This document shows, one piece after another, positions 10,475 to 56,311 of a DNA stretch of 64,000 nucleotides. Source of the stretch: a virus. How positions within the stretch are numbered: position 1 is the stretch's first letter; each line of letters begins with the position of its first letter. The notes beneath the pieces are model-generated. The model worked only from the letters and a program-made list of their open reading frames with translations, was not told the origin of the DNA and did no database searches. The stretch is from positions 186,001-250,000 of the IMG/VR virus record IMGVR_UViG_3300020122_000238. The stretch is one strand, 5' to 3'. The position numbers and the translations under genes are program-made.

Positions 10475-10937
10475 ATGCCCACCCTCAGCATCCCTGACAT
10501 CTCGAATGTCGAGCTGGCAAAACGCGCGAAGACGATCCGCCCCGTAGGGATGAGAGACGGCAAGCTCTATTACTACGATGCCAAGAGCGACCACCGCAAC
10601 ACGTCGTTCTTGTGGTGTCCCCTCACGACCGAGGAGGCGAAGGGTCAAGCCTCACGGGTTGACCCTTCGCACCTTGCACGCCTTCATGTACGCCGGCTCC
10701 TTCAAGCCCACCGTTCGAGAAGTCATCTCGCAGATCCCCGCAGAGGTCCGCGATGAAGTCGTGGCTTTCCTCGTCGATGGAACGAACACAGTGGACGATA
10801 CCAACCGCGAGCGAGAAGCCCGTGATGCTGGCCTCCATGTGGCGAAGACGACCCTCTACATCGCGGGGAAGCCGCAGCACCAGAAGTCTGAGTTGACTCC
10901 TTTCGGCAAGGCTCTCCTCGACGACGAGATCGGCTGA
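10475..10937 (+). pseudogene. Frameshifted hypothetical gene (two frames)
   Basis: Reading begins at ATG 10475 (MPTLSIPDISNVELAKRAK) and is coherent to about 10635 (FLWCPLTTEEAKG). Coherent coding then continues one base on in another frame (GLTLRTLHAFMYAGSFKPT ...) to the stop at 10937. The intact product would be about 153 aa, with a charged C-terminal half ending ALLDDEIG. A single extra base near the GGG at 10640-10642, a real inactivating indel or a programmed +1 shift would all explain it. Neither frame alone has a credible start and end. Confidence 0.6.
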
Positions 10938-17794: not shown

Positions 17795-17980
17795 ATGGCC
17801 ATGAAGCTCTTTCACGACGACGACTGCGGGGAACTCCTGGATCAGACCGGGATGTGCCCGAAGTGCAAGTTCTACCCGGACATGCAGAGCACCTCCTTCA
17901 AGGAAGTGTCGGATGCTGAGTATCGGTCCGGGAAGTCGCAAGGACAGACGTACCTCGGAAAGTATCGGACGCCGCTTTGA
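17795..17980 (+). CDS. Zinc-binding small protein, 61 aa
   Basis: FHDDDCGELLDQTGMCPKCKF suggests three or four metal ligands (C11, C21, C24 plus His). It starts 7 nt after GGTGTAAC. Its TGA overlaps the TTG start of the next gene. Confidence 0.6.
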   Translation: MAMKLFHDDDCGELLDQTGMCPKCKFYPDMQSTSFKEVSDAEYRSGKSQGQTYLGKYRTPL

Positions 17981-18164: not shown

Positions 18165-18230
18165 ATGAAGCTACTCGGAATTTCTGGGCTTGTCGTTTTC
18201 TATTGCCCCACACAGACACCCAGGACATAA
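18165..18230 (+). pseudogene. 5' remnant of native dNMP kinase gene
   Basis: ATG 18165 lies 8 nt after a GGTGTAGC box and encodes MKLLGISGLVVFYCPTQT before a stop at 18230. MKLLGISG is what a dNMP kinase looks like just before its P-loop; the intact kinase that follows has VYGISGNKGHGKDT. I interpret this as the start of the original gene, cut off after the P-loop Gly by the incoming kinase-HNH segment. The stop overlaps the next start (TAATG), so it may now act as a coupling leader. Confidence 0.5.
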
Positions 18231-19558
18231 TGCGGGCTATGTCTTACCGCAAGATATCAACACGGCGTTTGGAAGTCTACGGCATCTCGGGCAACAAGGG
18301 ACATGGCAAGGACACCTTCGCCAACCTCATCACACAGGCAAACACATCTTACAAAGTTGTCCCTTTCGCAGGGGCACTGAAGCGTATGTCAGCCAGGATC
18401 TTTGGGCTGACATACGCTCAGATGAACGATCCCTCCCTCAAAGAGATACCCCTTCCTCATGCCCGGGACATGGATCTGTTCGTCCCAGCCATGAAAGCCG
18501 AGACTGGACTACACATACAACCGGCGGGCAAGATTGCCCATAGTCCTCGTGAGGTCATGCAGTTTTTCGGGACAGAATATGTCCGAAGGATTCAGGACGA
18601 CTACTGGATCCAAAAACTACTCGCTGAGGTGGGAAACTCTCGACAAGTGCTCATTCCCGACGTCCGCTTTCCGAACGAAGCGGCTGCACTACGTTCTTAT
18701 GGGGGCATCATAATCAAGGTGGAACGGATCGATGCTCCCGTTCCGAAGGATGGGCATCTCTCCGAGACAGAGATGGCCAAAATCATCCCGGATCTTCTAG
18801 TGGGCGCACGGACAGGGGATCTGTCCCTTCCGTCTCGGATCGCGCGTCTCATTGCGATGAACCGTTTCGATTCTGCTACCAGCTACGACTATCGTAAGTC
18901 TAAGGAAGCAATTGCTTCCTATACATCAGGGAAGAGCGCCGAGGAGAGTTCTCTTCTCCTCGGCCACAAGCACCCCTATGCGCTCTACAACACCCTAGAT
19001 TACTATGGGGTACAGCGCCGAAAGCAGGCCCCAAACCGTGTCCACCATAAAGTTGTTGATGGGGTGGTTGGTAAATTCTGCATTCGGTGTGTGTGGCAAC
19101 CTCTGATTGAGTTCAACATGAGCACGAAGGCATGGGACGGTAAACATAGCTTGTGCCGTGCTTGCGCTTCTTTGGATCACAAGGATCGATACCAGAAGTA
19201 CGGGAAGACGGACAGCCTGTCGAGGGTCTACGCGATTTCGAAGAAACAAGCGGCGCAGCGTGGCATTCCCTTCAACTTGAGGGCGAGTGACATCCAATTC
19301 CTTTGGAATGCACAGGGAGGTCGTTGTACTTACAGCGGGCTGGAGATGACGACCGAGCTGAGATCCCCCAACAAGGTCACGATTGACAGAATTGATTCAT
19401 CGAAGGGGTATGAGATCGACAATATCGTTCTCTGCGGCTACCGCGTCAACTTGATGAAACGAGAAATGTCCTTGAGCGAGTTCAAGGGAATGATCCGCAC
19501 GTTGTACGAAAATCTGGCGGGAAGCTCATTCGGGTCGTGCGGCCCGGGGCTGGGCTGA
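18230..19558 (+). CDS. dNMP kinase fused to a C-terminal HNH domain
   Basis: A 442-aa protein. Residues about 14-215 form a phage-type deoxynucleoside monophosphate kinase (T4 gene 1-like): P-loop GNKGHGKDT (21-29), IPDVRFPNEA, and HLSETEM in the lid region, ending near RIARLIA. From about 240 onward is a second module with two Cys pairs (CIRC, CRAC) and an HNH core, GRCTYSGLEM then TIDRIDSSKGYEIDN, typical of phage HNH nucleases. Codons are AT-richer than the flanks, indicating recent acquisition. It starts at 18230 (TAATG) or 18239. A duplicated C-terminal kinase segment follows in another frame (19513-19704). Confidence 0.8.
   Translation: MRAMSYRKISTRRLEVYGISGNKGHGKDTFANLITQANTSYKVVPFAGALKRMSARIFGLTYAQMNDPSLKEIPLPHARDMDLFVPAMKAETGLHIQPAGKIAHSPREVMQFFGTEYVRRIQDDYWIQKLLAEVGNSRQVLIPDVRFPNEAAALRSYGGIIIKVERIDAPVPKDGHLSETEMAKIIPDLLVGARTGDLSLPSRIARLIAMNRFDSATSYDYRKSKEAIASYTSGKSAEESSLLLGHKHPYALYNTLDYYGVQRRKQAPNRVHHKVVDGVVGKFCIRCVWQPLIEFNMSTKAWDGKHSLCRACASLDHKDRYQKYGKTDSLSRVYAISKKQAAQRGIPFNLRASDIQFLWNAQGGRCTYSGLEMTTELRSPNKVTIDRIDSSKGYEIDNIVLCGYRVNLMKREMSLSEFKGMIRTLYENLAGSSFGSCGPGLG
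18381..18418. repeat. 14-bp inverted repeat in kinase domain
   Basis: Arms 18381-18394 and 18405-18418, loop 10 nt, within coding sequence. Confidence 0.9.
18903..18964. repeat. Palindrome and 10-bp inverted repeat at kinase-HNH junction
   Basis: An 18-bp perfect palindrome (18903-18920) and a second hairpin (18938-18947 with 18955-18964) lie close to where the kinase part gives way to the HNH part. Confidence 0.85.
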
Positions 19559-19704
19559 AGGGGGCCACGGGGCTGCACGTGAGCGAGGTTGAGCAGATGT
19601 CGATCCCCAACGAGGACTTCCACGTTGTCATCGTCAACGACGGGACCCTCGATGACCTGGCAGTCTCCGCCCGGAAGGCAGCCGAGCATTTGCTCTTTGG
19701 TTGA
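19513..19704 (+). pseudogene. 3' remnant of native dNMP kinase gene
   Basis: In a frame different from the fusion gene, 19513-19704 encodes SGGKLIRVVRPGAGLKGATG, then LHVSEVEQMSIPNEDFHVVI, then VNDGTLDDLAVSARKAAEHL and three more residues. This is the natural C-terminal part of a dNMP kinase, parallel to YGGIIIKVERIDAP ... HLSETEMAKI in the intact copy. It has no start codon of its own and high-GC codons matching the wider genome. It appears to be the tail of the displaced original gene. Confidence 0.7.
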
Positions 19705-19741: not shown

Positions 19742-20047
19742 ATGGGCTGGGCTGCACACCACATCGCGAAGCTTCAAAAGGGTGAGGTCGTTCAATTTCG
19801 ACCTCACGGTCACTCGATGACGGGGAAGATCGAGAGCGGCCAGCTCGTGACAATCGAGCCCTTGCTGATGGCGACCACCCTGGAGCCAGGGGACATCGTT
19901 CTTTGCAAGGTGAAGGGCAACGAGTACGTTCACCTCATCTCCGCGGTGCGCGATCGGCAGTACCAGATATCCAACAATCGCGGACATGTCAACGGGTGGG
20001 TGACCCGAGGAGCTATCTTCGGGAAGTGCGTGCGGGTGGAGCCATGA
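19742..20047 (+). CDS. S24/signal-peptidase-like fold protein, 101 aa
   Basis: PHGHSMTGKIESGQLVTIEP followed by LEPGDIVLCKVKGNEYVH is the core of LexA/UmuD-type S24 peptidases, with Ser25 and Lys56 or Lys58 in place for the catalytic dyad. There is no DNA-binding domain, so it is a stand-alone domain, possibly a UmuD-like or protease relic. It has a strong GGAGG ribosome site 11 nt upstream and GGTGTAAG further up. Confidence 0.65.
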   Translation: MGWAAHHIAKLQKGEVVQFRPHGHSMTGKIESGQLVTIEPLLMATTLEPGDIVLCKVKGNEYVHLISAVRDRQYQISNNRGHVNGWVTRGAIFGKCVRVEP

Positions 20048-20253
20048 ATTACCGTGCGACCACACATCTGTCGTTCGGGCCTGGGAGAAACCTACTCCTC
20101 AGAGTAGGTGAGACCACTTCTTCAGAAGTGGTCAGAAAACACCCCGCACTTCAAGGAGCCATTCGCCAGGGGTGGTTGGTGGAAGTCCCTGAAGTCTCGC
20201 ATGAGATATACCCCACCTGGCAAGCCCATTTACTTGCGGACGAGACCATCTGA
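20044..20253 (+). CDS. Paralogue triplet member 1, 69 aa
   Basis: Begins MNYRATTHLSFGPG and has the shared core ALQGAIRQGWLVEVPE. It ends in the recurring terminal peptide YPTWQAHLLADETI. It overlaps the previous stop (ATGA). Two hairpins lie early in the gene (20090-20109 and 20112-20133). Function unknown; it resembles the next two genes. Confidence 0.65.
   Translation: MNYRATTHLSFGPGRNLLLRVGETTSSEVVRKHPALQGAIRQGWLVEVPEVSHEIYPTWQAHLLADETI
20090..20133. repeat. Two consecutive hairpins in 20044-20253
   Basis: Arms 20090-20097 with 20102-20109, and 20112-20120 with 20125-20133, both perfect with 4-nt loops. Confidence 0.85.
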
Positions 20254-20255
20254 GC

Positions 20256-20444
20256 ATGCCGTATAGGGCGACCCGAGAATTCTACTACTCGCTGATGCTC
20301 GGCGACATCACGGTATACAAAGACGACATCGTATCGGACTGGGAAGTGAAAGAGTACAATCTGGAGGACGCCATCAAGCAGGGTTGGCTCATCTCATCCG
20401 AGCCCCCTACTTGGCAAGAGCGCTTGCTCGCGGACGACATATGA
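20256..20444 (+). CDS. Paralogue triplet member 2, 62 aa
   Basis: MPYRATREFYYSLMLGDITV, then EDAIKQGWLIS, ending PTWQERLLADDI. Same plan as 20044-20253: a YRA opening, a central (D/G)AIxQGWL and a terminal TWxxxLLADD peptide. It is co-directional, and its TGA overlaps the ATG of member 3. Confidence 0.65.
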   Translation: MPYRATREFYYSLMLGDITVYKDDIVSDWEVKEYNLEDAIKQGWLISSEPPTWQERLLADDI

Positions 20445-20638
20445 AGTACCGCGCTTTGAGCCCGTTCATAATGGGTCCCTTCACAGACCCTTTATCGTTG
20501 AGCAAGGGGTCTGTGGTGAGCACAGAGGACTTCGCGAAGTACCCGTACCTGACGCATGCCCTGAAGCAGGGGTATCTGGAGGAAATCCCTGAGCCGAAGG
20601 TCTTGACATGGCACGACCACCTCATGGAAGACGACTGA
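20441..20638 (+). CDS. Paralogue triplet member 3, 65 aa
   Basis: MKYRALSPFIMGPFTDPLSL, then HALKQGYLEEIPEP, ending VLTWHDHLMEDD. Third copy of the tandem family. A 9-bp inverted repeat (20482-20490 with 20507-20515) lies within it. Function unknown. Confidence 0.65.
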   Translation: MKYRALSPFIMGPFTDPLSLSKGSVVSTEDFAKYPYLTHALKQGYLEEIPEPKVLTWHDHLMEDD

Positions 20639-21439: not shown

Positions 21440-22156
21440 ATGAGTCACACGTACGAATATCCCCGACCGTCTGTCACGGTCGACTGCGTTGTCTTCGGCG
21501 TCGCAGACCATCTCAAGGAGATGCACGTTCTCCTGGTCCGCCGTGGCTCCGCCCCCTTTCAGGGGTTGTGGGCTCTTCCGGGCGGGTTCGTCGAGACCTC
21601 GGATACCAGAGACCAGGGTGAGTCCCTGGACGAAGCGGCGCAACGTGAGCTGAGCGAGGAGACGGGAGCCCAAGTGGGTTTTCTGGAGCAGCTCGGCACG
21701 TATGGGACGCCCGGAAGGGATCCGCGAGGTCGAGTGATCTCGGTCGCCTACTACGCTCTGGTCCGCCTCGAAGACCATCCGGTCAAGGGTGGTGATGACG
21801 CGGCAGAGGCCAAGTGGTGGCCTCTGCCGAAAGCCCTCCGGCTATACAAGGCTTTCGACCACGACAAGATTCTCAAGGATGCTTGGGCGAGGCTACAGGC
21901 GAAGGTTCGGTATGCCCCCATCGGGTTCAACCTTCTTCCGCCGAAGTTCTCTCTGACGGAGCTGCAATCCCTCTACGAGCTGATCCTCAATCGGACGCTC
22001 GACAAGCGGAACTTCCGCAAGCGCATCCTGGCAATGGGCATCCTCAAAGAGGCGGGTGTCCAGGTTGGTGTCCCGCACCGACGAGCGTGCCTCTACAGAT
22101 TCGACAGCGTTGCTTACAAGCGAGCTGTTCGTGACGGTTTCAACTTCGAGATTTGA
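21440..22156 (+). CDS. nrtR: NrtR-type Nudix regulator / ADP-ribose pyrophosphatase
   Basis: A 238-aa protein with an N-terminal Nudix domain ([10 protein letters not shown] ... [17 protein letters not shown]) and a C-terminal winged helix (about 155-238). The C-terminal part contains [20 protein letters not shown], then [11 protein letters not shown] and RACLYRFD, all NrtR hallmarks. NrtR proteins repress NAD biosynthesis genes, with ADP-ribose or NAD as effector; some also hydrolyse ADP-ribose. The catalytic REL-SEE residues are intact, with a few extra residues after GGF. NAMPT follows after a 10-nt gap. A 12-bp inverted repeat (21801-21829) is in the coding region. A plain Nudix hydrolase is the alternative. 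Confidence 0.85.
21801..21829. repeat. 12-bp inverted repeat in NrtR-like gene
   Basis: Arms 21801-21812 and 21818-21829, 5-nt loop, within coding sequence. Confidence 0.9.
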
Positions 22157-22166
22157 TGGAGACCCC

Positions 22167-23552
22167 ATGACCACGTACGAAACGAACCCGATCCTCGACA
22201 CCGATAGCTACAAGCTCTCGCACCCCGAGCTGCAATACCCGGCGAACATGACGAGCATGTTCCACTACTTCGAGTCGCGCGGTGGCCGCTACGGCTCGAC
22301 CCTCTTCTTCGGCCTCAGCTATCTGTGCCAGGAGTACCTCAGCAAGGGCTTCACGCAGGACCACGTCAACGAGGCGGCCGACTTCGCCGCAGCCCACGGT
22401 GAGCCCTTCCCCAAGGCCGCCTGGGACCGTCTGGTGGCCAAGGGCGGCTACTACCCGGTGAAGATCAACGCGGTCCCGGAAGGCACGCTCGTCCCGACGC
22501 ACAACGTGCTCATGACGACGGAGTCGACGGACCCCGAGGCCCCGTGGGTCGGTTCGTGGATCGAGAACCAGCTCGTGCGCCTCTGGTATCCGATCACCGT
22601 CGCCACCCAGTCGTTCTTCATCAAGAAGATCATCTTCGAGGCCCTCGTGAAGTCCTCGGATGATCCGGTCGGCGAGATCGGATTCAAGCTCCACGACTTC
22701 GGCAGCCGTGGCGTCAGCTCGCGGGAATCGGCTGGCATCGGCGGCATGAGCCACCTGGTCAACTTCCTCGGTTCGGACACCATCGAGGGCATCCGCTACG
22801 CCAACCACTACTACACGGACAAGATGGCGGGCTTCTCGATCCCCGCGTCGGAGCACTCGACGATCACGAGCTGGGGCAAGTCGAACGAGATCGACGCCTA
22901 CCGCAACATGGTTCACCAGTTCGCGAAGCCGGGCAAGATGTTCGCCTGCGTCAGCGACTCCTACGATCTCTACAACACGGTCGAGAACATCTGGGGTGAC
23001 ATCCTCCGCGAGGAGATCAAGGAGTCGGGTGCGACCCTCGTGATCCGGCCGGACTCGGGCAATCCCTCGGAGGTCATCCTCAAGTGCCTCCAGATCTTGG
23101 AGCGCAAGGTCGGGATGACGACCAACACCAAGGGCTTCAAGGTCCTCCCGAAGTACATCCGCCTGATCCAGGGCGACGGCGTGAACGAAGAGTCGATTCG
23201 CGAGATCCTCAACGTGATGATGGCCAACGGCTACAGCGCCTCGAACATCGGATTCGGCATGGGTGGCGCTCTGCTCCAGGGTGTCAATCGCGACACCCAG
23301 CGCTTCGCCTACAAGTGCTCGGAGGTCCTGGTCGATGGTGAGACCCGCGAGGTCTTCAAGGACCCCGTCACCGACAAGGGCAAGCGCTCGAAAGCGGGCC
23401 GCGTCGACCTCATCCACGAGAACAGCGAGTTTAAGACCGTTCGGGGTACACGTCGGAACAGCGCTCTCATCTCGGTCTTTGAGAACGGCAAGATCCTGGT
23501 TCAGCCGACCCTCGCCGAGATCCGGAAAATCTCGGAACGTCACATCTTCTGA
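22167..23552 (+). CDS. nampt: Nicotinamide phosphoribosyltransferase (NAMPT)
   Basis: A 461-aa protein, full length for the family. It converts nicotinamide plus PRPP to NMN. Family landmarks: NPILDTDSYKLSH at the N-terminus, HDFGSRGVSSRESAGIGG with the substrate Asp, PASEHSTITSWG with the catalytic His, VSDSYDLYNTVENIWG, VIRPDSGNPSEV and IGFGMGGALLQGVNRDT in the phosphate-binding region. All catalytic positions I can place are present. It is operonic with the upstream NrtR-like gene (GGAG ribosome site, 10-nt gap). High-GC codons. The NMN can be adenylylated by the NMNAT domain encoded at 60296-61429. Confidence 0.95.
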   Translation: MTTYETNPILDTDSYKLSHPELQYPANMTSMFHYFESRGGRYGSTLFFGLSYLCQEYLSKGFTQDHVNEAADFAAAHGEPFPKAAWDRLVAKGGYYPVKINAVPEGTLVPTHNVLMTTESTDPEAPWVGSWIENQLVRLWYPITVATQSFFIKKIIFEALVKSSDDPVGEIGFKLHDFGSRGVSSRESAGIGGMSHLVNFLGSDTIEGIRYANHYYTDKMAGFSIPASEHSTITSWGKSNEIDAYRNMVHQFAKPGKMFACVSDSYDLYNTVENIWGDILREEIKESGATLVIRPDSGNPSEVILKCLQILERKVGMTTNTKGFKVLPKYIRLIQGDGVNEESIREILNVMMANGYSASNIGFGMGGALLQGVNRDTQRFAYKCSEVLVDGETREVFKDPVTDKGKRSKAGRVDLIHENSEFKTVRGTRRNSALISVFENGKILVQPTLAEIRKISERHIF

Positions 23553-23566
23553 CCCCAAGAAGAAAC

Positions 23567-23611
23567 CTTCGGTAGGTGAAGGGTATCTGGTGTACCTCTC
23601 ATCTACCGAAG
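23567..23611 (+). promoter_or_regulatory. Hairpin around GGTGTA upstream of 23641
   Basis: Arms 23567-23579 and 23599-23611 pair with one G-U wobble and hold a GGTGTA box (23589-23594) in the loop. The phrase CCCAAGAAGAAA occurs on both sides. This gives a 40-nt leader before ATG 23641. Confidence 0.5.
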
Positions 23612-23640
23612 CCTACCCCCAAGAAGAAAAGAGGCCCATC

Positions 23641-23820
23641 ATGGGTTCCAGCGTCTACAGCGAAGAGTTCAGCGACAAGGCCAAGCAGGCTGTGAGCGAG
23701 ACCGTCCCGGCGACCCCGGCGGTGGTGTCTCCGCCGGGAACGGAGACCAAGGAAGAGCCCTCCGTCCCGACCCCGGCTCCCACCACGACCCCGACCGGCG
23801 AGACCCCGGCGACCCCCTGA
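23641..23820 (+). CDS. Small Pro/Thr-rich protein sharing VWA3 N-terminus, 59 aa
   Basis: MGSSVYSEEFSDKAKQ closely resembles the start of the next protein (MGGSSYSEDFYHARAKE), after which it is low-complexity Pro/Thr/Glu. It may be a truncated paralogue, or the shared N-terminus may be a localisation or assembly tag. Ribosome site AAGAGG. Confidence 0.6.
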   Translation: MGSSVYSEEFSDKAKQAVSETVPATPAVVSPPGTETKEEPSVPTPAPTTTPTGETPATP

Positions 23821-23895
23821 AGCAATGTTGGGGTTGCTGCATAGTGCGAGTAGCCCCAACACCTGCTCACCTGAGACGAAGAAAGAGAGTCCACC

Positions 23896-24855
23896 ATGGG
23901 CGGATCCAGCTACAGCGAAGACTTCTACCATGCCCGAGCCAAAGAGCGCGAACGTACGAAGACCCCGACCTTCGCACACAGCGTGACGACGGCCACGAAG
24001 CCGGCCCACGAGCAGCGTACGCACGCACTGCTCGACCCCAAGAACAAGCTCATCCGCGAGTCGCGCGATTCGAAGGCTCATCCCGAGTCCCTCGCCGTCG
24101 CCGTGATGTTTGACGTGACGGGCTCGATGGCGGCGACTCCGACGGTCTTCCAGACCAAGCTTCCGCGGCTGATGAACCTCCTCACGGCGACCGGCGTCCA
24201 GCACCCGCAGCTCCTCTTCGGATGCGTCGGTGACGCGGTCTCCGACAAGGGCTCGATTCAGATCGGCGAGTTCGAGTCCGGCAACGAGATGGACGAGACC
24301 TTCAGCCACGTCTGGCTGGAAGGTCATGGTGGCGGCACGAACCAGGAGAGCTACCAGAACGCGCTCTACTTCTTCGCCCGGCACACGCAGATCGACTGCG
24401 TCGAGAAGCGCAACAAGAAGGGCTACCTCTTCTTGCTCGGTGACGAGGAGGCCTACCCCGTGGTGCGCCGACGGGAAGTCGAGGCGCTCTTCGGCGAGAC
24501 GATCCAGGAGGATATCTCGCTGGAGAACATCATTGCGGAAGCCCACGACAAGTACAACGTCTTCTTCGTCATCCCGGCCGAGACGCAGGGAGGGCGGAAC
24601 CCGGCGATCCGCAACTACTGGGTCGACCGCTTCGACGAAACCCACGTTCTCAACCTGACCTCCGCCGAGGGCGTGGCCGAAACGATCGCCCTCACCGTGG
24701 GGCTCTGCGAAGGGACGACCAACCTCGACGCGGCTCGCCAGGACCTCGTGACCGCGGGTGTCTCGACCAAGCTGATCAACGACACCATCGCCAGCCTGAC
24801 GCCCCTCGCTGAGAGCCTCGGCAAGGCCAGCACCAGCTCGACCATCCGGCTCTAG
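23896..24855 (+). CDS. VWA-domain protein 3, 319 aa
   Basis: A 60-residue N-terminal extension (MGGSSYSEDF ...) precedes a VWA domain with MIDAS D73-V-T-G-S77-M and GHGGGTNQES supplying the Thr region (about 135). FLLGDEEAYP (about 180) is the third MIDAS-side loop. Cytoplasmic, no membrane segment. VWA proteins usually work with an AAA ATPase or in assemblies; none is obvious nearby. Leader of about 75 nt after 23641-23820, with AAAGAGAG before the ATG. Confidence 0.85.
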   Translation: MGGSSYSEDFYHARAKERERTKTPTFAHSVTTATKPAHEQRTHALLDPKNKLIRESRDSKAHPESLAVAVMFDVTGSMAATPTVFQTKLPRLMNLLTATGVQHPQLLFGCVGDAVSDKGSIQIGEFESGNEMDETFSHVWLEGHGGGTNQESYQNALYFFARHTQIDCVEKRNKKGYLFLLGDEEAYPVVRRREVEALFGETIQEDISLENIIAEAHDKYNVFFVIPAETQGGRNPAIRNYWVDRFDETHVLNLTSAEGVAETIALTVGLCEGTTNLDAARQDLVTAGVSTKLINDTIASLTPLAESLGKASTSSTIRL

Positions 24856-24858
24856 GGG

Positions 24859-24886
24859 TTGATCAGACGGGCCGTTCTCTTGTACA
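24859..24886 (+). promoter_or_regulatory. Class A promoter for broken Nudix gene
   Basis: TTGATC 24859-24864, 16-nt spacer, TGTACA 24881-24886, 8 nt to TTG 24895. Confidence 0.7.
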
Positions 24887-24894
24887 GTCCGACA

Positions 24895-25310
24895 TTGCAA
24901 CCCAACACGTTCTGCGGCTTCTGCGGCTTCCGATTTTTCGAGGGAGCCGCATGGCCTCGGAAGTGTTCAAATTGTACACGAACAACCTACCGGAATCCAA
25001 TGCCGGTAGTCGTGGCCATCATTTTCGTTCGTGGATTCGACCCCGACGAAAGTACCACATGGAAGTCTCCGAAGAAGTAGGAATAGTCACCTCTTCTTTG
25101 GAGTACCGTCTCCTCAACATCAAGACATCAACCACAGGATCGAGCCTGCTCATCTTCTGTGCAGGTCCGATCGTCCGCTGGGACGAGGTCGAATGGGCAT
25201 TCAAACCCAACAGGGAGGTCTCCGAGGTTGCTGTTGCCACCTTCGAGACTGAGCTGGGCTTCTCGCTTCACACGGAAGCCCTTCGTCAATACGCCCTCAA
25301 CCCAGTATAA
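24895..25310 (+). pseudogene. Nudix hydrolase (NudC-like) with internal deletion
   Basis: Starting at TTG 24895, the frame gives QPNTFCGFCGFRFFEGAAWP, RKCSNC and YRNPMPVVVAIIFV, the zinc ribbon and first strand of a NudC-like Nudix hydrolase, then stops at 25080. A second frame (from 24951, meaningful from about 25060) gives EVSEEVGIVTSSLEYRLLNI, LLIFCAGPI and ELGFSLHTEALRQYALN, the end of the same family. The segment carrying PGG(F)xExGE, most of the Nudix box, is missing. The gene is therefore inactivated by deletion plus frameshift. Confidence 0.7.
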
Positions 25311-25318
25311 TTTTCCTC

Positions 25319-25365
25319 GCATGGGGATCTATACAAGGCTCCCCACCTTGTATAGATCCCCATGC
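25319..25365. repeat. 20-bp inverted repeat sequestering a start codon
   Basis: Arms 25319-25338 and 25346-25365 are perfectly complementary with a 7-nt loop. The right arm contains ATG 25362-25364 of the next gene, so in RNA the start codon would be paired. Confidence 0.9.
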
Positions 25366-25568
25366 CCATCGAACTCTCTCCCCAGCTCATGAACACCCTC
25401 GCCGGCTTGATCGGTGAAGGCGCTTCCATCGATGACCTGTTCGCCCGTCTGCGGGAGGAAGGGGACATCCCGGAACACGAGTTTCCGGGCATCCTCTGCA
25501 AGGTGCTGACGACCACCTTGGCGGAGAACACCAACAACTTCCGCAACCAGCTCGTGAAGTTCCTGTGA
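25362..25568 (+). CDS. Hypothetical protein, 68 aa
   Basis: A small helical protein (MPIELSPQLMNTLAGLIGEG). Its ATG lies in the right arm of a 20-bp hairpin, so translation may be controlled. The TGA overlaps the next GTG. Function unknown. Confidence 0.6.
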   Translation: MPIELSPQLMNTLAGLIGEGASIDDLFARLREEGDIPEHEFPGILCKVLTTTLAENTNNFRNQLVKFL

Positions 25569-25843
25569 ACCTCGAAATTCACGACAACACGACGGATGAG
25601 GGGGGCACCTTGATAGGAGTCGCCAGAAATCTGGACTACATGTACCAGGCGGAGCAGTGGGTGATCGACTCCAAGGACGAGAGGCGGGTCGCTCGCTTCG
25701 TCCTGTTCTCGGGCCCTATGACGCCGATTCGCGAATGGCGTATGGTCAACGGAGAGCCGAGCGACGTCCCCATCACGCCGGGGACGGTCGCCGATCCCCG
25801 AACGTTCGCCCGCGAGACAACGGACCGAACATGTAGAGGTTGA
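25565..25843 (+). CDS. Hypothetical protein, 92 aa, GTG start
   Basis: GTG 25565 overlaps the previous TGA. Beta-rich, unrecognised. It ends at 25843 with TTGATC of the next promoter starting within the stop region. An imperfect palindrome around 25725 resembles the other intragenic repeats. Confidence 0.55.
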   Translation: MNLEIHDNTTDEGGTLIGVARNLDYMYQAEQWVIDSKDERRVARFVLFSGPMTPIREWRMVNGEPSDVPITPGTVADPRTFARETTDRTCRG

Positions 25844-25867
25844 TCGGCAGCTCCCTCGGACTGTAGG
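25840..25867 (+). promoter_or_regulatory. Class A promoter for 25874-26107
   Basis: TTGATC 25840-25845, 16-nt spacer, TGTAGG 25862-25867, 6 nt to ATG 25874. Confidence 0.8.
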
Positions 25868-25873
25868 ACGGGC

Positions 25874-26107
25874 ATGAACACTGAAGAAATGGTGGACGCC
25901 CTATTCGCCAACAAGCCCGTGAAAGTCAGAGTGCCCGAAACGGGCCTGGCGTTCACGATCGCTCCGAAGAGGGGGTCTTTCGGGATCCTGTTCTTCGGGA
26001 TCATCCCCGAGGGAAAGAAGCGCGCTCTGAAAACTCATGGGTACATGCTCATGGGGCGGAATGAGATGTGGGCCTGGGTAAACAGTCTTGAGTCCGTGGA
26101 GAACTGA
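25874..26107 (+). CDS. Hypothetical protein, 77 aa
   Basis: A small alpha/beta protein with a central hydrophobic strand (FGILFFGIIPEG). Own near-leaderless promoter; one base separates its stop from the next ATG. Unknown function. Confidence 0.6.
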   Translation: MNTEEMVDALFANKPVKVRVPETGLAFTIAPKRGSFGILFFGIIPEGKKRALKTHGYMLMGRNEMWAWVNSLESVEN

Positions 26108-26108
26108 C

Positions 26109-26468
26109 ATGTTGAGCACCATTGAACGAGCCATTGCTCTCAGAACGCACTACCGGGAAATCCTGGTCGCTCGCAACGGACACTGGGGTACTTGCTCTGG
26201 GTGCCCTCGCGACGAAGATGGTGTCCCACACCCTGGACGCTGTTCGGAGTATTCGCGATCCGATCATCACATTCCGGCCAGCGAAACGCATCGTGGTGAA
26301 GGCGTAAACACGACCGAAGCCATCGCTGCATTGGCTCGGGTTCTTTACGAGCGCGCTCCGAAGCCTGTGAAGACTGGCCACGCGGAAGCCGACGCGAAAG
26401 CGGAATGGCTGGCTGCGTGGGGCTGTGTGGAAGAAGCCGAGAAGAAATTTTATCCTCCTCGTGGTTGA
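26109..26468 (+). CDS. Cys/His hypothetical protein, 119 aa
   Basis: CSGCPRDEDGVPHPGRCSEY (residues about 29-48) could bind one zinc; the C-terminal half is helical. No known family. Co-transcribed with 25874-26107. The next promoter lies across its stop. Confidence 0.6.
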   Translation: MLSTIERAIALRTHYREILVARNGHWGTCSGCPRDEDGVPHPGRCSEYSRSDHHIPASETHRGEGVNTTEAIAALARVLYERAPKPVKTGHAEADAKAEWLAAWGCVEEAEKKFYPPRG

Positions 26469-26492
26469 TCGACAGCCACCCCCGACTGTAGG
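26465..26492 (+). promoter_or_regulatory. Class A promoter for 26499-26861
   Basis: TTGATC 26465-26470, 16-nt spacer, TGTAGG 26487-26492, 6 nt to ATG 26499. Confidence 0.8.
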
Positions 26493-26498
26493 ACTCCC

Positions 26499-26861
26499 AT
26501 GACGACCACCAAGTACGACTTCACCAAGCTCACCGCGGACCTCAAGGCTGGCCTCCTCGTGGCCAAGCAGGTTGCGGCGGCCACCCACGACGGCGGCACC
26601 TGTAACTTCGACGCCCCCAAGTTCCACTTCGATCGTTCACCGTCCCCCAAGGTGCGGGCGGAGTTCGAGAAGGCCGCAACGGAAGCGGGGGTTCCCGGCT
26701 ACTGGACGGGGGACACGTTCGGCCGTCACCAAAACCGTCGCTTCGTCTTCGGTCCCGGGTGCGGCGGGCAGGGCCACTCGCGCACGAAGGCCGCGGAAGC
26801 TCTCAAGGATCACCTCGTCGCTGCGGGCTGGGACGTCAGCATGTACTACCAGGCGGACTGA
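26499..26861 (+). CDS. Hypothetical protein, 120 aa
   Basis: An alpha/beta protein with a Gly-rich turn (GPGCGGQGHS) near residue 85. I do not recognise a family. Its near-leaderless promoter is typical of this set. Confidence 0.6.
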   Translation: MTTTKYDFTKLTADLKAGLLVAKQVAAATHDGGTCNFDAPKFHFDRSPSPKVRAEFEKAATEAGVPGYWTGDTFGRHQNRRFVFGPGCGGQGHSRTKAAEALKDHLVAAGWDVSMYYQAD

Positions 26862-26863
26862 TC

Positions 26864-27110
26864 ATGGGACGCCTGGTAGTTACCGTGAGGGGAGAATGCG
26901 AGCACCACAAGCGACGCGGACATCTACTGTGATGTCCGCGTCGCTTGTGGTGCAACGATCCTCCGCGTCGAGATGATAGGGGACTACCCCTCCACGGGCG
27001 CCCACATCTACGTGAAGTGCCAAAAATCTCCCGCCGAGCTGTCCGCGGCTATCGACGCTGCGGACGAGATCCCGCAATATTCAATCAGGACGGAAGTAGA
27101 GCGAAAATGA
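26864..27110 (+). pseudogene. Frameshifted small gene over a 23-bp inverted repeat
   Basis: ATG 26864 gives MGRLVVTVRGE and then leaves frame. One base on, coding resumes as SDADIYCDVRVACGATILRV, then HIYVKCQKSPAELSAAIDAA, to the stop at 27108-27110. One indel near the G-run at 26889-26892 would restore a protein of about 81 aa. The region right after the shift is a 23-bp perfect inverted repeat (26902-26953), which may have caused the mutation. The stop overlaps the ATG of the synthetase gene. Confidence 0.55.
26902..26953. repeat. 23-bp perfect inverted repeat
   Basis: Arms 26902-26924 and 26931-26953 with a 6-nt loop, inside the frameshifted gene. Confidence 0.95.
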
Positions 27111-28423
27111 GTAACGTAATCCTGATCGCGGGCCTCAACTACGGAGATGAGGGCAAGGGGACGACCGTCGACTACCTCGCTCGGAAGCACGAAGCGCACA
27201 CGGTCGTCCGCTACAACGGCGGAGCCCAAGCAGGCCATTCGGTGGTCCTGGAGGATGATCGGCACCACACCTTCGCCCAGTTCGGGAGCGCCACCTTCGT
27301 CCCTGGGGTGAAGACGCACCTCAGCCGGCACATGCTCATCAACCCGATCTTCATGATGTCTGAGGAGAAGCACCTCCGCACTGTCGGCGTCGAGGATGCC
27401 TTCGAACGGATGACCATCGAACGGGATGCGCTGATCACGACTCCCTACCATGTCGCCGCGAATCGCATCCGGGAGATGGCTCGCTCAAACCGCCACGGAT
27501 CTTGTGGGATGGGAATCGGCGAGACGGTGAGCAGTCACCTGTTCCACCCTCAAGAGGATCTCCGGATTGGGGATCTGGAAGGGCCAATCACCGCGCGATT
27601 GGAGCAGATCCGAGCGCGGTATTTGTGGGAGCTGGCTACTCTGCACATTCCCGAGTGCAAGTTCCGCGACTACGATTGCATCTGCCCGTTCAAGCATGAA
27701 TGGGGCATGCTCTTGAACAAGAGCCTTCTCCCCTTGATTGTGGGGTTGCTCACGGGATTTCTCAAGCTCCCGCTCAAGGTTGTCGATGAGACCTACCTCC
27801 CGCTCATCATGGGGGAAGGGACCACGATCTTCGAGGGTGCTCAGGGTGTCCTCCTTGATCAGGACTACGGGTTCCACCCCTACACGACCTGGTCCGACAC
27901 GACCTTCAGCAACGCCCTCAACCTGATCGAAGGCTTCTCTGGAGACGTAAGGAAGATCGGGATCGTTCGATCCTACATGACCCGGCACGGGGCGGGCCCA
28001 TTCGTCACGGAAGATGTCACCCTCCAGCTCCCCTCCACGAAGGTTGAGCACAACTCGCTCAATCCCTGGCAATCGAATTTCCGGGTGGGGCATTTCGACG
28101 CCTTCGCGACCAATTACGCCCTCAAGGTGATTGGGGGTGTCGACGAGATCGCCATGACACACTGCGATGTGCCAAGTAGTGGTAAAATTTGTGTTGGATA
28201 CAGGGGAGAGTTTACCCCCGAAGTGCTTCAGGATATGCCGCATGTGAAGCATATTCGTGAAGACCTCGACGTTCGTACGGGTATCACAAATGCTCTTTTC
28301 AATGTCTTTCCGGTGTACTTGACCGATGTGGCAGAGAAGGATTTCATCCCCAAAATTGAAGATTTCGTGGGGACTCCCATCACCATCAAGTCGTACGGCC
28401 CCACGGCCAAGGACAAGCGATAA
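27107..28423 (+). CDS. Divergent adenylosuccinate synthetase-like enzyme
   Basis: A 438-aa protein. PurA joins IMP and aspartate using GTP. The P-loop-like start GLNYGDEGKG keeps the catalytic Asp, and QAGHS keeps the catalytic His (Asn of NAGH is Gln). FEGAQGVLLD and TRHGAGPF are conserved. However, the IMP-site TTGRGIGP is SCGMGIGE and the aspartate loop TTGRxRRxGWxD is replaced by PWQSNFRVGHFDAF, so at least one aspartate-binding Arg is lost. The substrate may differ from IMP or aspartate. Unlike PurZ of diaminopurine phages the catalytic Asp is not Ser. ATG overlaps the previous stop and TAATG links to the kinase-like gene. Confidence 0.8.
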   Translation: MSNVILIAGLNYGDEGKGTTVDYLARKHEAHTVVRYNGGAQAGHSVVLEDDRHHTFAQFGSATFVPGVKTHLSRHMLINPIFMMSEEKHLRTVGVEDAFERMTIERDALITTPYHVAANRIREMARSNRHGSCGMGIGETVSSHLFHPQEDLRIGDLEGPITARLEQIRARYLWELATLHIPECKFRDYDCICPFKHEWGMLLNKSLLPLIVGLLTGFLKLPLKVVDETYLPLIMGEGTTIFEGAQGVLLDQDYGFHPYTTWSDTTFSNALNLIEGFSGDVRKIGIVRSYMTRHGAGPFVTEDVTLQLPSTKVEHNSLNPWQSNFRVGHFDAFATNYALKVIGGVDEIAMTHCDVPSSGKICVGYRGEFTPEVLQDMPHVKHIREDLDVRTGITNALFNVFPVYLTDVAEKDFIPKIEDFVGTPITIKSYGPTAKDKR

Positions 28424-29337
28424 TGGACCCCATCAAGATCATCCTCCCGCCCACCAGGCCCAAGCACGCGACGAACGCGTGGGAAGCCCTCATGGCGGAT
28501 GATGATGGTATCCTTGAGGGTGATACCGCGACCTTCACCTTCGACACGAAGGTTGCGGAAGGGGACCTCTGCGACATCTACCGAGGCACCTACAACGGCC
28601 GCCCGGCGGCTTTGAAGGTGTCCCATGGGGTCGACGTCAACGACCTCGTCGAGCATGAGGCGGACGTCATCCGGCACCTCTTCCCCGCAGAAGAGGCGAA
28701 CGTCGGGTTCCTCCGCTACCTCTCCAAGCTCAGCTACTCCTTCCATGACGAACGGGAGGGAAAGCGGATCAACGTCTTCCCCTGGCTCGGAGAACATGTC
28801 TCCGTCGCCGACATCCTGAAGGCGTATCCAGGCGGCATCGAGTACCAAAACATGGTCTGGATGTTCAAGCGTGGACTGGAAGGCCTCGGATACGTTCACG
28901 AAAAGAACGTCATTCACGGTGCGGTCCTCCCCCCGCATCTGCTGATCCATCCGGCCGACCACGGGGCCAAGCTGATCGACTGGTCCTACGCCGTCCTCAA
29001 CGCGGACGCACGACGGAACAAGGTCCGGGCCATGTCCGCACCCTGGAGGTCCTTCTATGCCCCCGAGATTCCCGGGAAAGGGATCCCGACGGCGGCGACG
29101 GATATCTACATGCTGGCCAAGTGCATGGTCGCTCTGCAAGGCGGGGACGTCACCACGGACGCGATGCCGGATACGACCCCAGAGCCCATTCAGAGGTTCT
29201 TGAGGGAGTGCCTGTCTCCCATGCAGCACCTTCGGCCGAACAGCGCATGGGATCTCGTCGAGGAGTTCAACGCGCTTCTTCGCTCCGTGATCGGCCCGCC
29301 GAAATACTTCAAGTTCGAGATGTCCCCCAAGGTGTAA
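28423..29337 (+). CDS. Atypical serine/threonine kinase-like protein, 304 aa
   Basis: A kinase fold is visible: AALKVS with the ATP Lys (65), a helix-C acidic stretch, VIHGAVLPPHLLIHP in place of HRDLKPxN, and KLIDWSYAVL in place of DFG. The catalytic Asp of HRD is absent (HGA), so it is either a pseudokinase or an alternative mechanism. The N-terminus carries NAWEALMADDDG, the same acidic-Trp peptide seen at other termini. It starts on the stop of the PurA-like gene (TAATG), so the two are coupled. Confidence 0.7.
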   Translation: MDPIKIILPPTRPKHATNAWEALMADDDGILEGDTATFTFDTKVAEGDLCDIYRGTYNGRPAALKVSHGVDVNDLVEHEADVIRHLFPAEEANVGFLRYLSKLSYSFHDEREGKRINVFPWLGEHVSVADILKAYPGGIEYQNMVWMFKRGLEGLGYVHEKNVIHGAVLPPHLLIHPADHGAKLIDWSYAVLNADARRNKVRAMSAPWRSFYAPEIPGKGIPTAATDIYMLAKCMVALQGGDVTTDAMPDTTPEPIQRFLRECLSPMQHLRPNSAWDLVEEFNALLRSVIGPPKYFKFEMSPKV

Positions 29338-33213: not shown

Positions 33214-34029
33214 ATGTATGACGATGCCTCGCTGGACGATTACTGGGCCATGTTGCGGCCCCCCGAGCCCATGCCGTCCCCTGTGATCTCCCTTGAGACC
33301 GCTACCGAATGGCTGAAAACCATTGGGGCTCCGAGACATTCTCCCCTCTTGGTAGTCCCTGGTACATCTGTGGAGCGTTGCAGCGTTTTTCGGGCTCTGG
33401 GGAAAGTCGTGGACAGCACCTACTTCGAGTGCGACCTGGAAAACGCCTCCTGGTTAGAGGTGGGTCTCGACACGACCATCGCAGCTCTCGTCTCCTGTCA
33501 GGACCTCGATCTGGAGGGCACCATTCGAACGATGGCTGACACGTCCCATTACCTGGAGCATGACGTGTACCGGATTCTCTGGGAAATTCGGTTCTTGCGT
33601 CGTGAAGATCGGCATCAAGCGGACGAGCTGTTCGATATCTTCCGGCGATTGGTCCGTGACACACAACTTCGAGAACATGAGGTTCGGAGGCTCCGGGACC
33701 TTGGCATCTCGAAGTTCATCTTCTCTTTCCGGGAGAAAGTGGAAGTGCTGTGCTTCCTCCGCACCCTCGCCTCTCAGAACGAAATCCCGAGTCGCCTGGT
33801 TCTTTCTTTCGACGGGTTGGACCAGGCCATACAAGCTGAGAACAAGGGGGTTCTTCGCCAGCTCGTGATGCTCATCTCTGAAGTCCGACGTTGGACGCTA
33901 ATCACCAGTTGCCCGATTGGCATCCTCCTGGGTTTTTCAGCGGCCCGAAGTAATACCGCAAAACTCCGCAAGCTCAATCAGAATCTCACCGCCGAAATGG
34001 AGGCCGGGCTCGCCTGGACCAAGTCATGA
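33214..34029 (+). CDS. Hypothetical protein with degenerate NTPase look, 271 aa
   Basis: The start MYDDASLDDYWAMLRPPEPMP is one of the N-terminal acidic-YW peptides. SPLLVVPGTSVERCSVFRAL occupies a P-loop position but lacks GxGK(S/T); LVLSFDGLDQAIQ looks like a Walker B strand and LITSCPIGILLG like a sensor strand. It may be a STAND- or AAA-like ATPase that has lost nucleotide binding, or only a look-alike. Starts after GGTGTAAC. Confidence 0.5.
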   Translation: MYDDASLDDYWAMLRPPEPMPSPVISLETATEWLKTIGAPRHSPLLVVPGTSVERCSVFRALGKVVDSTYFECDLENASWLEVGLDTTIAALVSCQDLDLEGTIRTMADTSHYLEHDVYRILWEIRFLRREDRHQADELFDIFRRLVRDTQLREHEVRRLRDLGISKFIFSFREKVEVLCFLRTLASQNEIPSRLVLSFDGLDQAIQAENKGVLRQLVMLISEVRRWTLITSCPIGILLGFSAARSNTAKLRKLNQNLTAEMEAGLAWTKS

Positions 34030-34535
34030 TCCGGATCAATTTCACTTGCGATGTTGTCGAACTCGAACCGCTCAACACTGACGAGTACGACGGCCTGCTC
34101 ATGGTGATCTCCACAGCCACCACCCCGATTGGAGGGAATGACCAGGTGAAACATCAGGATACGGCGACGGGGGAATGGGACGACATCCCTGTTTCTGCGG
34201 GGGCCCGCTCAACAGGGGGGTTGGTCTTCCGGGAGCGGCAAGTCACTCTGCCGGGGAAGTACCTGATCCGCTCCGCGATCCGCAATGGGAAAGAGCCCTT
34301 CAGGACTTTCGACCTCTTCCTCGAACATCTGGGAGACCGAAATGCCCGCCTCACGGTCGAGCCTGGAAGCACCCTTGCGTTCTGGATCATGGGCAACTTC
34401 GACCCGATCTTGATCGGTGCAGAGCGTACGATCATTCACATCGAGAATGGGCAAATCACGTTGATCGACACAGGGAAGCCGAGCGATCAGCGCCGTCCGA
34501 CCGCCTGGGAGAAAATGGACGACGACGACATCTAG
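34026..34535 (+). CDS. Hypothetical protein, 169 aa
   Basis: A predicted beta-sandwich-like protein ending in RRPTAWEKMDDDDI, a form of the recurring terminal peptide. The ATG overlaps the previous TGA, so expression is coupled to 33214-34029. Unknown role. Confidence 0.6.
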   Translation: MIRINFTCDVVELEPLNTDEYDGLLMVISTATTPIGGNDQVKHQDTATGEWDDIPVSAGARSTGGLVFRERQVTLPGKYLIRSAIRNGKEPFRTFDLFLEHLGDRNARLTVEPGSTLAFWIMGNFDPILIGAERTIIHIENGQITLIDTGKPSDQRRPTAWEKMDDDDI

Positions 34536-34556
34536 CTCTTGGTGTCCATAGAAGGG

Positions 34557-35159
34557 ATGCCCCCTCGTCACCATCAACTAGACCCCCAAAGTGGAATGGG
34601 TATGAGCCCTCCGCACTGCCTCGTCTGTCGGGCCAGCTTCAACCCCAACGAGCCGCTCACCTCATGCGACCATATCTCGATCGACGACCTGAAGATCCAG
34701 ACAGTCTACGACATCGACATGGACGAGAAGCCCATCGGCATGGGGCTCTCGGGGGAGTGCTTCAACCTGAAGTGCCCCGACTGCAAGCAGACCTTCATGC
34801 AGCTCCGCAAGTCCATGCACGGGCTCTTCTATGGGTGCCCTTCCTACCCCGCGTGCAAGGGCACTCACGGGGCCAATGCGGACGGCGCTCCGAAGGGCAT
34901 CCCTGGAGACTTCGCGACCCGTCAGGCCCGTATAGCGGTTCACCTGGTCTTCGATCGTATATGGAATCAACCTGGCTCCAACCTGACCCGAATCCAGGCC
35001 TATACCTGGATGGCTTGGGAAATGAGGCTGGGAATCATGGAAGCCCATATCGCACGCTTCGACATTGAAATGTGCGAGAAGCTCGTCTCCCTGGTGAAAA
35101 AACACTTCGGGGTCACGAACGCGTGGGAAGCCATCCTCGACGACTCCATCTGGGATTGA
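34557..35159 (+). CDS. Topoisomerase-type zinc-ribbon protein, 200 aa
   Basis: Contains CLVCRASF, then KCPDCKQTF, then GLFYGCPSYPACKGTH, the zinc ribbon found at the C-terminus of bacterial topoisomerase I. The rest is helical and ends TNAWEAILDDSIWD (terminal peptide). ATG 34557 is chosen for its distance from a GGTGTCCA box. Likely a DNA- or RNA-binding adaptor. The next gene has a related ribbon. Confidence 0.65.
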   Translation: MPPRHHQLDPQSGMGMSPPHCLVCRASFNPNEPLTSCDHISIDDLKIQTVYDIDMDEKPIGMGLSGECFNLKCPDCKQTFMQLRKSMHGLFYGCPSYPACKGTHGANADGAPKGIPGDFATRQARIAVHLVFDRIWNQPGSNLTRIQAYTWMAWEMRLGIMEAHIARFDIEMCEKLVSLVKKHFGVTNAWEAILDDSIWD

Positions 35160-35183: not shown

Positions 35184-35408
35184 ATGGGTCCCCCAACAGC
35201 GTTTGCCGGGGGTTCATTTTGCGCCCGCGGACCCATGCGTCTTATCGACGGACCCTACGGCCGGTTCTACGGCTGCAAGCACTGGCCTGACTGTGTGTCT
35301 CGAATTCCGGCCGAGTATGACGGTACGCCGAAGTACCCGAAAAAGAAGCTGCCCCGAAGTCATTCGCGGGGCAGCTTCTTTCGGACGACTTCGACTAGTC
35401 GTTGGTGA
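35184..35408 (+). CDS. Small topoisomerase-type zinc-ribbon protein, 74 aa
   Basis: FCARGPMRLIDGPYGRFYGC followed by KHWPDC matches the GPM...GxYGxFxGCxxxPxC part of the topoisomerase C4 ribbon, with the first Cys pair reduced to one Cys. The C-terminal 20 residues are encoded by the bidirectional terminator stem and may be non-functional. It overlaps the end of the leftward kinase gene by 14 bp. Confidence 0.6.
   Translation: MGPPTAFAGGSFCARGPMRLIDGPYGRFYGCKHWPDCVSRIPAEYDGTPKYPKKKLPRSHSRGSFFRTTSTSRW
35342..35381. terminator. Bidirectional intrinsic terminator
   Basis: A 15-bp perfect stem (35342-35356 with 35367-35381), A/T at both outer ends, lies between the convergent genes 35184 (+) and 35395 (-). 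Confidence 0.8.
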
Positions 35409-37746: not shown

Positions 37747-38211
37747 ATGGCGATGAACCCCGACGCCGTAGCCGTGTGGCAAGACTTGAAGACATGGGCG
37801 ATCCCTATCTTCGAGTGGTGCAAGGTGCATCCCTGGGGTGTTCTTACGTTCAACTTGTTCTTCGTCCTCGGGTGTTTCGACTCCTACCGCAGAGGGGCTC
37901 GCAAATACCGGCGTCTGGCAGAAGCTCAACAACTTCGAGACAGCAAACTGATCCGGGGCCTGGAGCAAAATGTGGAAAGTCGCATCCGGCGCCTGGACCA
38001 AGTGCAGCAAGCGCTTGCGGATCTTCGAGCGCAAGTCGCGTTGATTCGACCTGGGGGTGAGACAACGCCTGAACTCTTCCCCGAGATCCCGTCGCCACCC
38101 AAGAAGGCTCCGCGAAAGTCTCGGGCAAAGAAGGTCCCGCCGGAGCCGACCACATGGCACTCAAAGCTCCTCGACGACGGGGATGACATTGGGACGGCCG
38201 AGAAGAAGTAG
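37747..38211 (+). CDS. Membrane-anchored coiled-coil protein, 154 aa
   Basis: A hydrophobic segment (about residues 26-45, PWGVLTFNLFFVLGCF) is followed by a coiled coil (50-100), a basic Pro/Lys linker (KKAPRKSRAKK) and the near-terminal peptide PTTWHSKLLDDGDD. This protein plan (anchor, coil, linker, peptide) is shared with 49668-50033. Role unknown. Confidence 0.6.
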   Translation: MAMNPDAVAVWQDLKTWAIPIFEWCKVHPWGVLTFNLFFVLGCFDSYRRGARKYRRLAEAQQLRDSKLIRGLEQNVESRIRRLDQVQQALADLRAQVALIRPGGETTPELFPEIPSPPKKAPRKSRAKKVPPEPTTWHSKLLDDGDDIGTAEKK

Positions 38212-48009: not shown

Positions 48010-48010
48010 A

Positions 48011-48406: not shown

Positions 48407-48421
48407 ACAAGAGATTACACC

Positions 48422-56277: not shown

Positions 56278-56285
56278 CTTGAGGA

Positions 56286-56303
56286 TCTACACCGCGGTGT
56301 ACT
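56286..56303. promoter_or_regulatory. Back-to-back GGTGTA promoters, divergent dyad
   Basis: A CTACACCGCGGTGTA dyad provides TGTAGA leftward (8 nt to ATG 56277) and TGTACT rightward (8 nt to ATG 56312). The dyad itself could be a regulator site. Confidence 0.65.
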
Positions 56304-56311
56304 CTAGCGAC

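Follow-up and report, generated by a model that had tools for sequence, protein, structure and literature searches.

Introduction

In phage T4, a 10-residue N-terminal capsid-targeting sequence (CTS) is sufficient for packaging (PMC9026906). In the same account, the CTS is common to the internal proteins IPI-IPIII, the mature parts of which are divergent, it is removed by the prohead protease, and it is suggested as the route by which T4-like phages put various proteins into the head (PMC9026906). Cargo targeting peptides of encapsulins are short, mostly C-terminal and occasionally N-terminal, and bring diverse cargo into a shell of the HK97 fold (PMC8346489). The peptide tag described below may work in an analogous way to either of them. 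It consists of 10 residues, (P)T-A-W-E-x-L-L-x-D-D or TWxxxLLxDD, and sits at the end or at the beginning of 19 proteins encoded within the window, that is, the whole 64,000-nucleotide stretch of DNA analysed (G000:C1:186001-250000, part of a virus record of 275,300 bases).

Relatives of the virus used for comparison include G005 (208 kb), G006 (512 kb) and G007 (10.8 kb). G001 and G004, which come from one shared sample, are apparently pieces of the same phage as G002, so that the independent lineages carrying the TAWE version of the tag are three, namely G000, G001/G002/G004 and G003.

Results

A triplet of small tagged genes

The locus contains three adjacent genes:
Gene A, 20044-20253, plus strand: 69 aa, tag TWQAHLLADETI at 20215-20250
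Gene B, 20256-20444, plus strand: 62 aa, tag TWQERLLADDI at 20409-20441
Gene C, 20441-20638, plus strand: 65 aa, tag TWHDHLMEDD at 20606-20635; body apparently swapped in a related phage

Junctions are of the ATGA type, gene A overlapping its upstream neighbour and gene C overlapping gene B. Our own gene caller overlooked gene A and called gene C short. The upstream neighbour (19742-20047) encodes an S24-peptidase-like protein of 101 aa, whose Pfam match (E 6.8e-5) falls slightly short of the cut-off; it extends into the start of gene A, and its G002 counterpart is almost identical.

The three genes had been singled out by the sequence-only reading, and the shared features it listed are all found at these positions: xYRA near the start, a central AI[RK]QGWL or ALKQGYL, and the terminal peptides given above. 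Their similarity is not confined to the tag. Local alignments of the tagless proteins, set against 2000 shuffles, gave Z values of 18.2 (A-C), 8.2 (A-B) and 8.9 (B-C); upon removal of the first five residues as well, values were 13.9, 6.7 and 5.3, respectively. A, B and C are tandem paralogues, homologous beyond the tag. The terminal peptide had been regarded as a feature of the triplet, a view that has to be abandoned, as the same peptide recurs on other proteins across the window and the genome.

The same reading saw in the triplet a tandem diversification that adapts the proteins to a variable target. Duplication with divergence behind a fixed tag is supported. In the comparison of the window with G002 the body of C is 31% identical (17/55) and that of A 51%, and both tags are identical at 10 of 10 residues. 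DNA flanking the C body is conserved on both sides in the related phage, and the body looks swapped; near-identical tag DNA borders it, and the C tag exhibits synonymous changes and zero amino-acid changes. Support for adaptation is missing, since body dN/dS values of 0.51 (A), 0.11 (B) and 0.68 (C) give no signal of positive selection, and B is nearly frozen. The hairpins reported in two of the genes are present as single-strand folds, that of A with z -3.4 and that of C with z -2.2. The corresponding DNA of the related phage shows no unusual folding (z -1.0 and -0.1), and hairpins were therefore rejected as a conserved element.

A profile of the YRA body detects three copies each in G000, G001 and G002, and none in G003, G004 or six named phages; in G003 the tag portion alone is matched. 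The predicted fold of the body is b-b-b-b-a-a-b, with pLDDT values of about 76-89 per ten-residue block up to residue 50, and the tag is modelled as a low-confidence helix. Searches of the PDB with this fold returned nothing significant (best E 1.1). In BFVD the best E was 0.014, and a DUF7210 protein is found among the top matches (E 0.099), a possible likeness to a small phage domain to be weighed against the lack of any match at E<=0.001. Genes A and C have no Pfam or PHROG match at E<=1, and gene B matches in Pfam DUF7638 only (E 0.0074, 16.8 bits, cut-off 27). That the YRA body is a piece of the head protein was discarded, as it does not match the head-protein profile used for this purpose, trained partly on head-protein fragments. 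A YRA-like stretch within 56231-57031 was discarded too, as it fails to match the YRA profile.

Tagged proteins in the window

Tags were searched for with a C-terminal regular expression ([WF], two or three residues, two hydrophobic residues, two acidic residues) among the 558 window ORFs of at least 45 aa. Twelve ORFs match, against about 0.5 expected from interior rates. Elsewhere in G000, four of five other 20-kb stretches have zero matches, and the single match in the fifth looks spurious; two G002 stretches corresponding to the window region have 5/170 and 5/151. Some carriers were first found with a looser expression than this one. A position-weight scan added N-terminal and divergent versions of the tag, and its score in the window is circular since the matrix was built from the tags of the window itself. 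Features detected outside the triplet are the following:

10656-10937, plus strand: tagged ORFan, C-terminal TPFGKALLDDEIG; start uncertain
28423-29337, plus strand: Ser/Thr protein kinase (phrog_3043), N-terminal motif NAWEALMADD at 28474-28503
34026-34535, plus strand: tagged protein, C-terminal PTAWEKMDDDDI
34539-35159, plus strand: DUF3268 / Top1-type zinc-ribbon protein, C-terminal TNAWEAILDDSIWD; start uncertain
35184-35408, plus strand: zinc-ribbon-like ORF, tag SFAGQLLSDDFD out of frame in the window, in frame in the G002 orthologue
37747-38211, plus strand: apparent membrane-anchored coiled-coil protein, TTWHSKLLDDG 9 aa before the end, after a Pro-rich linker
41754-42308, plus strand: tagged protein, C-terminal TAFEVLQRPFLEDDD, a divergent version
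45165-45647, plus strand: tagged protein, C-terminal SNAWAKILEDDL
45877-46302, plus strand: protein with N-terminal motif MSTTAWDLILNDFDE
47710-48030, minus strand: tagged protein, C-terminal RTWHERLLKEDEDF
48011-48469, minus strand: tagged protein, C-terminal PTVWDAILED; start uncertain
49668-50033, minus strand: apparent membrane protein, C-terminal PTVWEHLDGDDV
54237-54797, plus strand: tagged protein, C-terminal LTAWEQLDDLG
55684-56277, minus strand: tagged protein, C-terminal DNAWGHLLADD
56231-57031, plus strand: tagged protein, C-terminal PTAWDVVMADEFEEMV
57537-57908, plus strand: tagged protein, C-terminal PTWHELLIDDDFDI; G001 orthologue frameshifted before the tag
57905-58621, minus strand: tagged protein, C-terminal PTAWEQLLIDDDFD; G001 orthologue weakly resembles a segment of the major head protein (E 0.015)

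Among the carriers are a Ser/Thr kinase, a zinc-finger protein and two proteins that look membrane-bound. When tags are removed and the remaining bodies are grouped, the 19 tagged proteins fall into 18 families. Placement is mostly C-terminal, being N-terminal in 2/19, and the fraction of Pro ahead of the tag is 0.18, against 0.055 overall.

A few neighbouring sequences deserve mention. The match at 35321-35398 had been taken for a chance match inside a terminator-like repeat, an idea dropped because the G002 orthologue (L027 13717-14085) has the tag in frame. Frameshifts located directly before tags, here and in the G001 orthologue of 57537-57908, could be either assembly errors or a means of switching the tag on and off. 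Window 17801-17980 is a shortened, untagged counterpart of a tagged G002 protein (L005 3193-3666) ending with STPFSKALLDDDIG. Acidic starts containing DW or YW and followed by a Pro-rich segment occur at window positions 58663, 38215 and 33214, and at 9439 and 12620 of L024; they are possibly an N-terminal version of the tag.

Conservation of tags and bodies

Window proteins were compared with G001/G002 orthologues, and 17 pairs could be scored out of the 19 tagged proteins. The kinase was omitted, its orthologue being split over two stretches, and so was 57537-57908, because of the frameshift directly before the tag in G001. Tag identity exceeds body identity in 17/17 pairs (163/173 versus 1696/2396 residues, Wilcoxon p 7.6e-6). 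Among 50 untagged controls, from which genes shorter than 60 aa, orthologues differing in length by more than 40 aa and bodies of 98% identity or higher were excluded, the last 10 residues are better conserved than the body in 25/50 (p 0.69). Tagged bodies are in turn less conserved than untagged window proteins (mean 0.69 versus 0.82, p 0.004). Codons used for the tag peptide differ among carriers within one phage. By these comparisons the tag is under selection at the protein level.

Versions of the tag in different lineages

A TAWE profile built on 22 tags, only one of which comes from G003, has 18 matches in G000 (15 within the window), 18 in G002, 11 in G003 and 8 in G004, and none in G005, G006, G007 and six named large phages. 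In G003, 8/11 matches lie within 3 residues of the stop; of the others, one is in the kinase, one belongs to a protein that seems to have a membrane segment, and one is probably a chance match. Two degenerate DNA scans of IMG/VR yielded 18 stretches. C-terminal matches in ORFs longer than 60 aa number three, and all reside in jumbo contigs (G003, G004 and G001); two near-identical 44-aa reading frames also terminate in the pattern.

The 512-kb G006 has a tag version of its own, PTRFERILxDD. In 187 kb of this genome, 38/283 called genes match the TRFER-type pattern, 31 of the matches lying at the C-end, 4 close to the N-end and 5 inside the protein; shuffles gave 4.41 anywhere and 0.35 at the C-end. 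Bodies of the 31 C-terminal carriers group into 27 families. A TRFE profile has 66 matches in G006, 3 in G007 and one each in G000, G002, G003 and LucasX (E 0.06-0.2), and none in G005 and four other named phages. G005 makes a weak case for a tagged lineage: 60 kb contain only three C-termini of the tag kind, and a de novo terminal-motif test on 140 kb found no enrichment, while the same test recovers both G000 (p 1.6e-8) and G006 (p 2e-27). The tag is uniform within a lineage and differs between lineages, and is in this sense a lineage-specific code.

The head proteins closest to that of G000 are those of LR745208 (82%), Tunturiibacter phage Tunturi_5 (48%) and Bacillus phage G (39%). The TAWE profile has zero matches over the whole records of these phages, and the TRFE profile one weak match (Tunturi_5, E 0.12). 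De novo tests on sampled LR745208 and Tunturi_5 sequences gave nothing comparable to G000 or G006. As phages with related heads lack the tag, the latter is not general to this head type. Phage G did give a strong de novo signal, yet it was rejected as a third tagged lineage. The signal corresponds to a tandem array (NC_023719, 352560-369261) made up of 16 or more paralogues, each about 180-220 aa long, all of one family and with a conserved YWKENDRYLAKIL end. Such an array mimics a terminal-motif signal, and grouping of the bodies into families is therefore needed.

The kinase and its surroundings

Relatives of the kinase are found in viral contigs including G003, G005, G006 and G007. The motif is N-terminal in G000 and G002 (NAWEALMADD). 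The kinases of G003 (PTAWARLMDEDD) and G005 (SLYDLLDADD) have it in an insert following a DWS motif, and those of G006 and G007 (TRFDHILEDDD) in an insert of the N-lobe. Three different locations in orthologous kinases show that the motif is position-independent. The window kinase is 92% identical to the split orthologue and has the same tag core; the match of the kinase in mycobacteriophages begins at residue 64, past the motif. A structure model of the kinase was set aside for its mean pLDDT of 43.9.

The gene order Nudix, NAMPT, von-Willebrand-like protein, PurA, kinase, deduced from translations, is common to G000 (window 21440-29337), G005 and G006, the block spanning 283-6183 in L103 and 9244-16705 in L105. 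Neither G003 nor six named phages yielded the von-Willebrand-like protein, which was discarded as a candidate reader of the tag because it is absent from the tag-bearing G003. At window 18230-19704, a deoxynucleotide monophosphate kinase gene is apparently broken by an HNH endonuclease stretch; the G002 copy (L005 3689-4408) is one open frame. The HNH stretch is possibly an intron-borne or inserted homing endonuclease.

Carriers and the major head protein

Scanning 34 tagged G006 proteins, only five PHROG families were matched, the kinase and the major head protein among them; most carriers lack a functional assignment. The DUF3268/Top1 zinc-ribbon carrier is found in both G000 and G003, and one G002 carrier combines an ArdC N-domain and an M78 peptidase. 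Apparent membrane-anchored carriers, recognized by eye, are two in the window and one in G003.

Pieces of the head protein are the most telling of the carriers. A head-protein profile derived solely from three true head proteins revealed segments of the major head protein in four tagged proteins of three lineages, represented by G002, G003 and G006 (E 4e-17 to 5.5e-13). These are L128 in G003 (E 4e-17), L102:2711-3751 in G006, with two segments in swapped order (E 3e-16), L102:830-1594 in G006 (E 3.5e-15) and L130 in G002 (E 5.5e-13). Weaker matches (E 0.008 to 0.07) come from three more tagged proteins. As for the true head protein L124:3571-4440, it is not tagged. Loci L131 and L134 (G000 and G002) encode an untagged 316-aa protein in which a segment of the major head protein (profile about 158-254) occurs twice.

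T4-type sliding-clamp peptides are a further known kind of motif. This possibility was weakly tested, and discarded: the one DNA polymerase inspected (family A, L022:84-1415) has no terminal tag, and no replication protein is found among the carriers examined.

Discussion

Very probably the tag serves for docking or sorting, and all its carriers share one partner. It would act as a linear docking motif of about 10 residues, usually terminal and placed behind a Pro-rich linker, taking many unrelated, fast-evolving accessory proteins to the shared partner. The triplet A-B-C would represent one small family that has been duplicated and diversified behind the label. A label constant within a phage and different between lineages is expected if carriers co-evolve with one receptor, and we infer one receptor per lineage.

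What the partner is can be stated with less assurance. The chances that it is part of head assembly are, in our estimate, slightly below even. In the mechanism we prefer for the docking motif, tagged proteins would be loaded into the growing head and ejected together with the DNA. The explanation taken as a whole is held at even confidence. Head loading agrees with the head-protein pieces, with the anti-restriction protein and with what T4 does. Anti-restriction proteins are injected by P1 and T4, and those of the ArdC type would be most useful when entering with the DNA. Apparent membrane-anchored carriers are odd as head cargo, and count against this mechanism. So do the N-terminal and internal placements of the motif, which T4 does not show, and the absence of the tag from LR745208, Tunturi_5 and phage G, whose head proteins are related.

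The membrane-anchored carriers would be at ease in a different scheme, the main rival, doubtful on the whole though worth consideration, in which docking takes place inside the cell. Variable bodies would seize different host or defence targets, and the constant tag would link all of them to a single effector machine of phage or host, much as poxvirus ankyrin proteins use their constant C-terminal end; membrane-anchored carriers would then recruit a cytoplasmic partner. The lower conservation of tagged bodies, the exchange of the gene C body behind an unchanged tag, the presence of the tag on a kinase and on an ArdC-like protein and, within the kinase, its placement wherever exposed, would all be in line with an intracellular hub. 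Defence systems that sense the phage head protein are known, and head-protein pieces would be decoys for them, an idea which rests on four proteins. Against the scheme, no hub protein was found, and the candidate reader of von-Willebrand type is missing in G003, which is tagged.

A role as degron, or as adaptor-binding site setting the lifetime of accessory proteins, is improbable. The tag is indeed short, terminal and common to many small proteins, but is found also at the N-terminus and inside a kinase loop, and its acidic DD ends do not resemble the known hydrophobic C-terminal degrons. Still less probable is that the tag is the footprint of recombination or of a mobile element, spread by DNA homology and not selected as protein. 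Paralogous tags could seed recombination, and near-identical tag DNA next to the swapped C body is what this explanation would predict. Yet changes in the C tag are confined to synonymous sites, the codons for the peptide vary between carriers of one phage, and N-terminal and internal placements are in frame. Ordinary tandem paralogy combined with chance likeness of acidic C-termini, which does account for the strongest C-terminal signal of phage G (16 proteins, one family), can hardly be entertained for the window and G006 sets, which split into 18 and 27 families, and for the excess over shuffles of C-terminal matches in G006.

The docking label, taken together with the lineage distribution, leads to a broader proposal, that a clade of giant phages uses a sorting code by which dozens of unrelated, rapidly exchanged proteins are sent by a lineage-specific peptide to one co-evolving phage receptor. 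Arguments for and against this appear to us evenly balanced. Kinase, anti-restriction and zinc-finger proteins, head-protein pieces, membrane anchors and tandem paralogues would all be passengers of the code, and new bodies would be plugged in by gaining the label, a reading to which we give neither more nor less credit. A limited literature search, by title and abstract, turned up no account of such a tag. If true, the code would be a modular delivery or adaptor platform with no described counterpart in phages. The majority of giant-phage genes are without a known function, and the label groups dozens of them into one functional class without recourse to homology. Membership of the class would be predictable from the last ten residues in a new giant phage, and the label itself offers a direct handle on the common partner. 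Should it load the head, it would also mark the proteins that reach the host along with the DNA, and in laboratory phages it could bring in proteins of choice, a use to which the T4 CTS is already put.

Comparison with known systems

Poxvirus ankyrin-repeat proteins have variable bodies and a constant C-terminal F-box/PRANC that docks on the host ubiquitin ligase. The arrangement is analogous, many variable bodies being joined to one constant C-terminal docking element. The poxvirus element, however, is a folded domain acting on a host ligase, whereas the phage tag is a 10-residue peptide with a putative partner.

The T4 CTS is similar to the tag in measuring about 10 residues and in being common to otherwise dissimilar proteins, the carriers of the tag falling into 18 families in the window and 27 in G006. 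The CTS is N-terminal and removed by the prohead protease, whereas the tag, known from sequence alone, is mostly C-terminal and is found on about 19 proteins in one window. Lacking the N-terminal position, the tag falls outside the T4 CTS family in its present definition. Inspection by eye reveals no similarity between the encapsulin consensus SDGSLGIGSLKRS (PMC8346489) and the acidic TAWExLLxDD/TRFERILxDD found here. Encapsulin peptides and the tag are nonetheless alike in other features, both being short, mostly C-terminal, sometimes N-terminal, and borne by diverse carriers.
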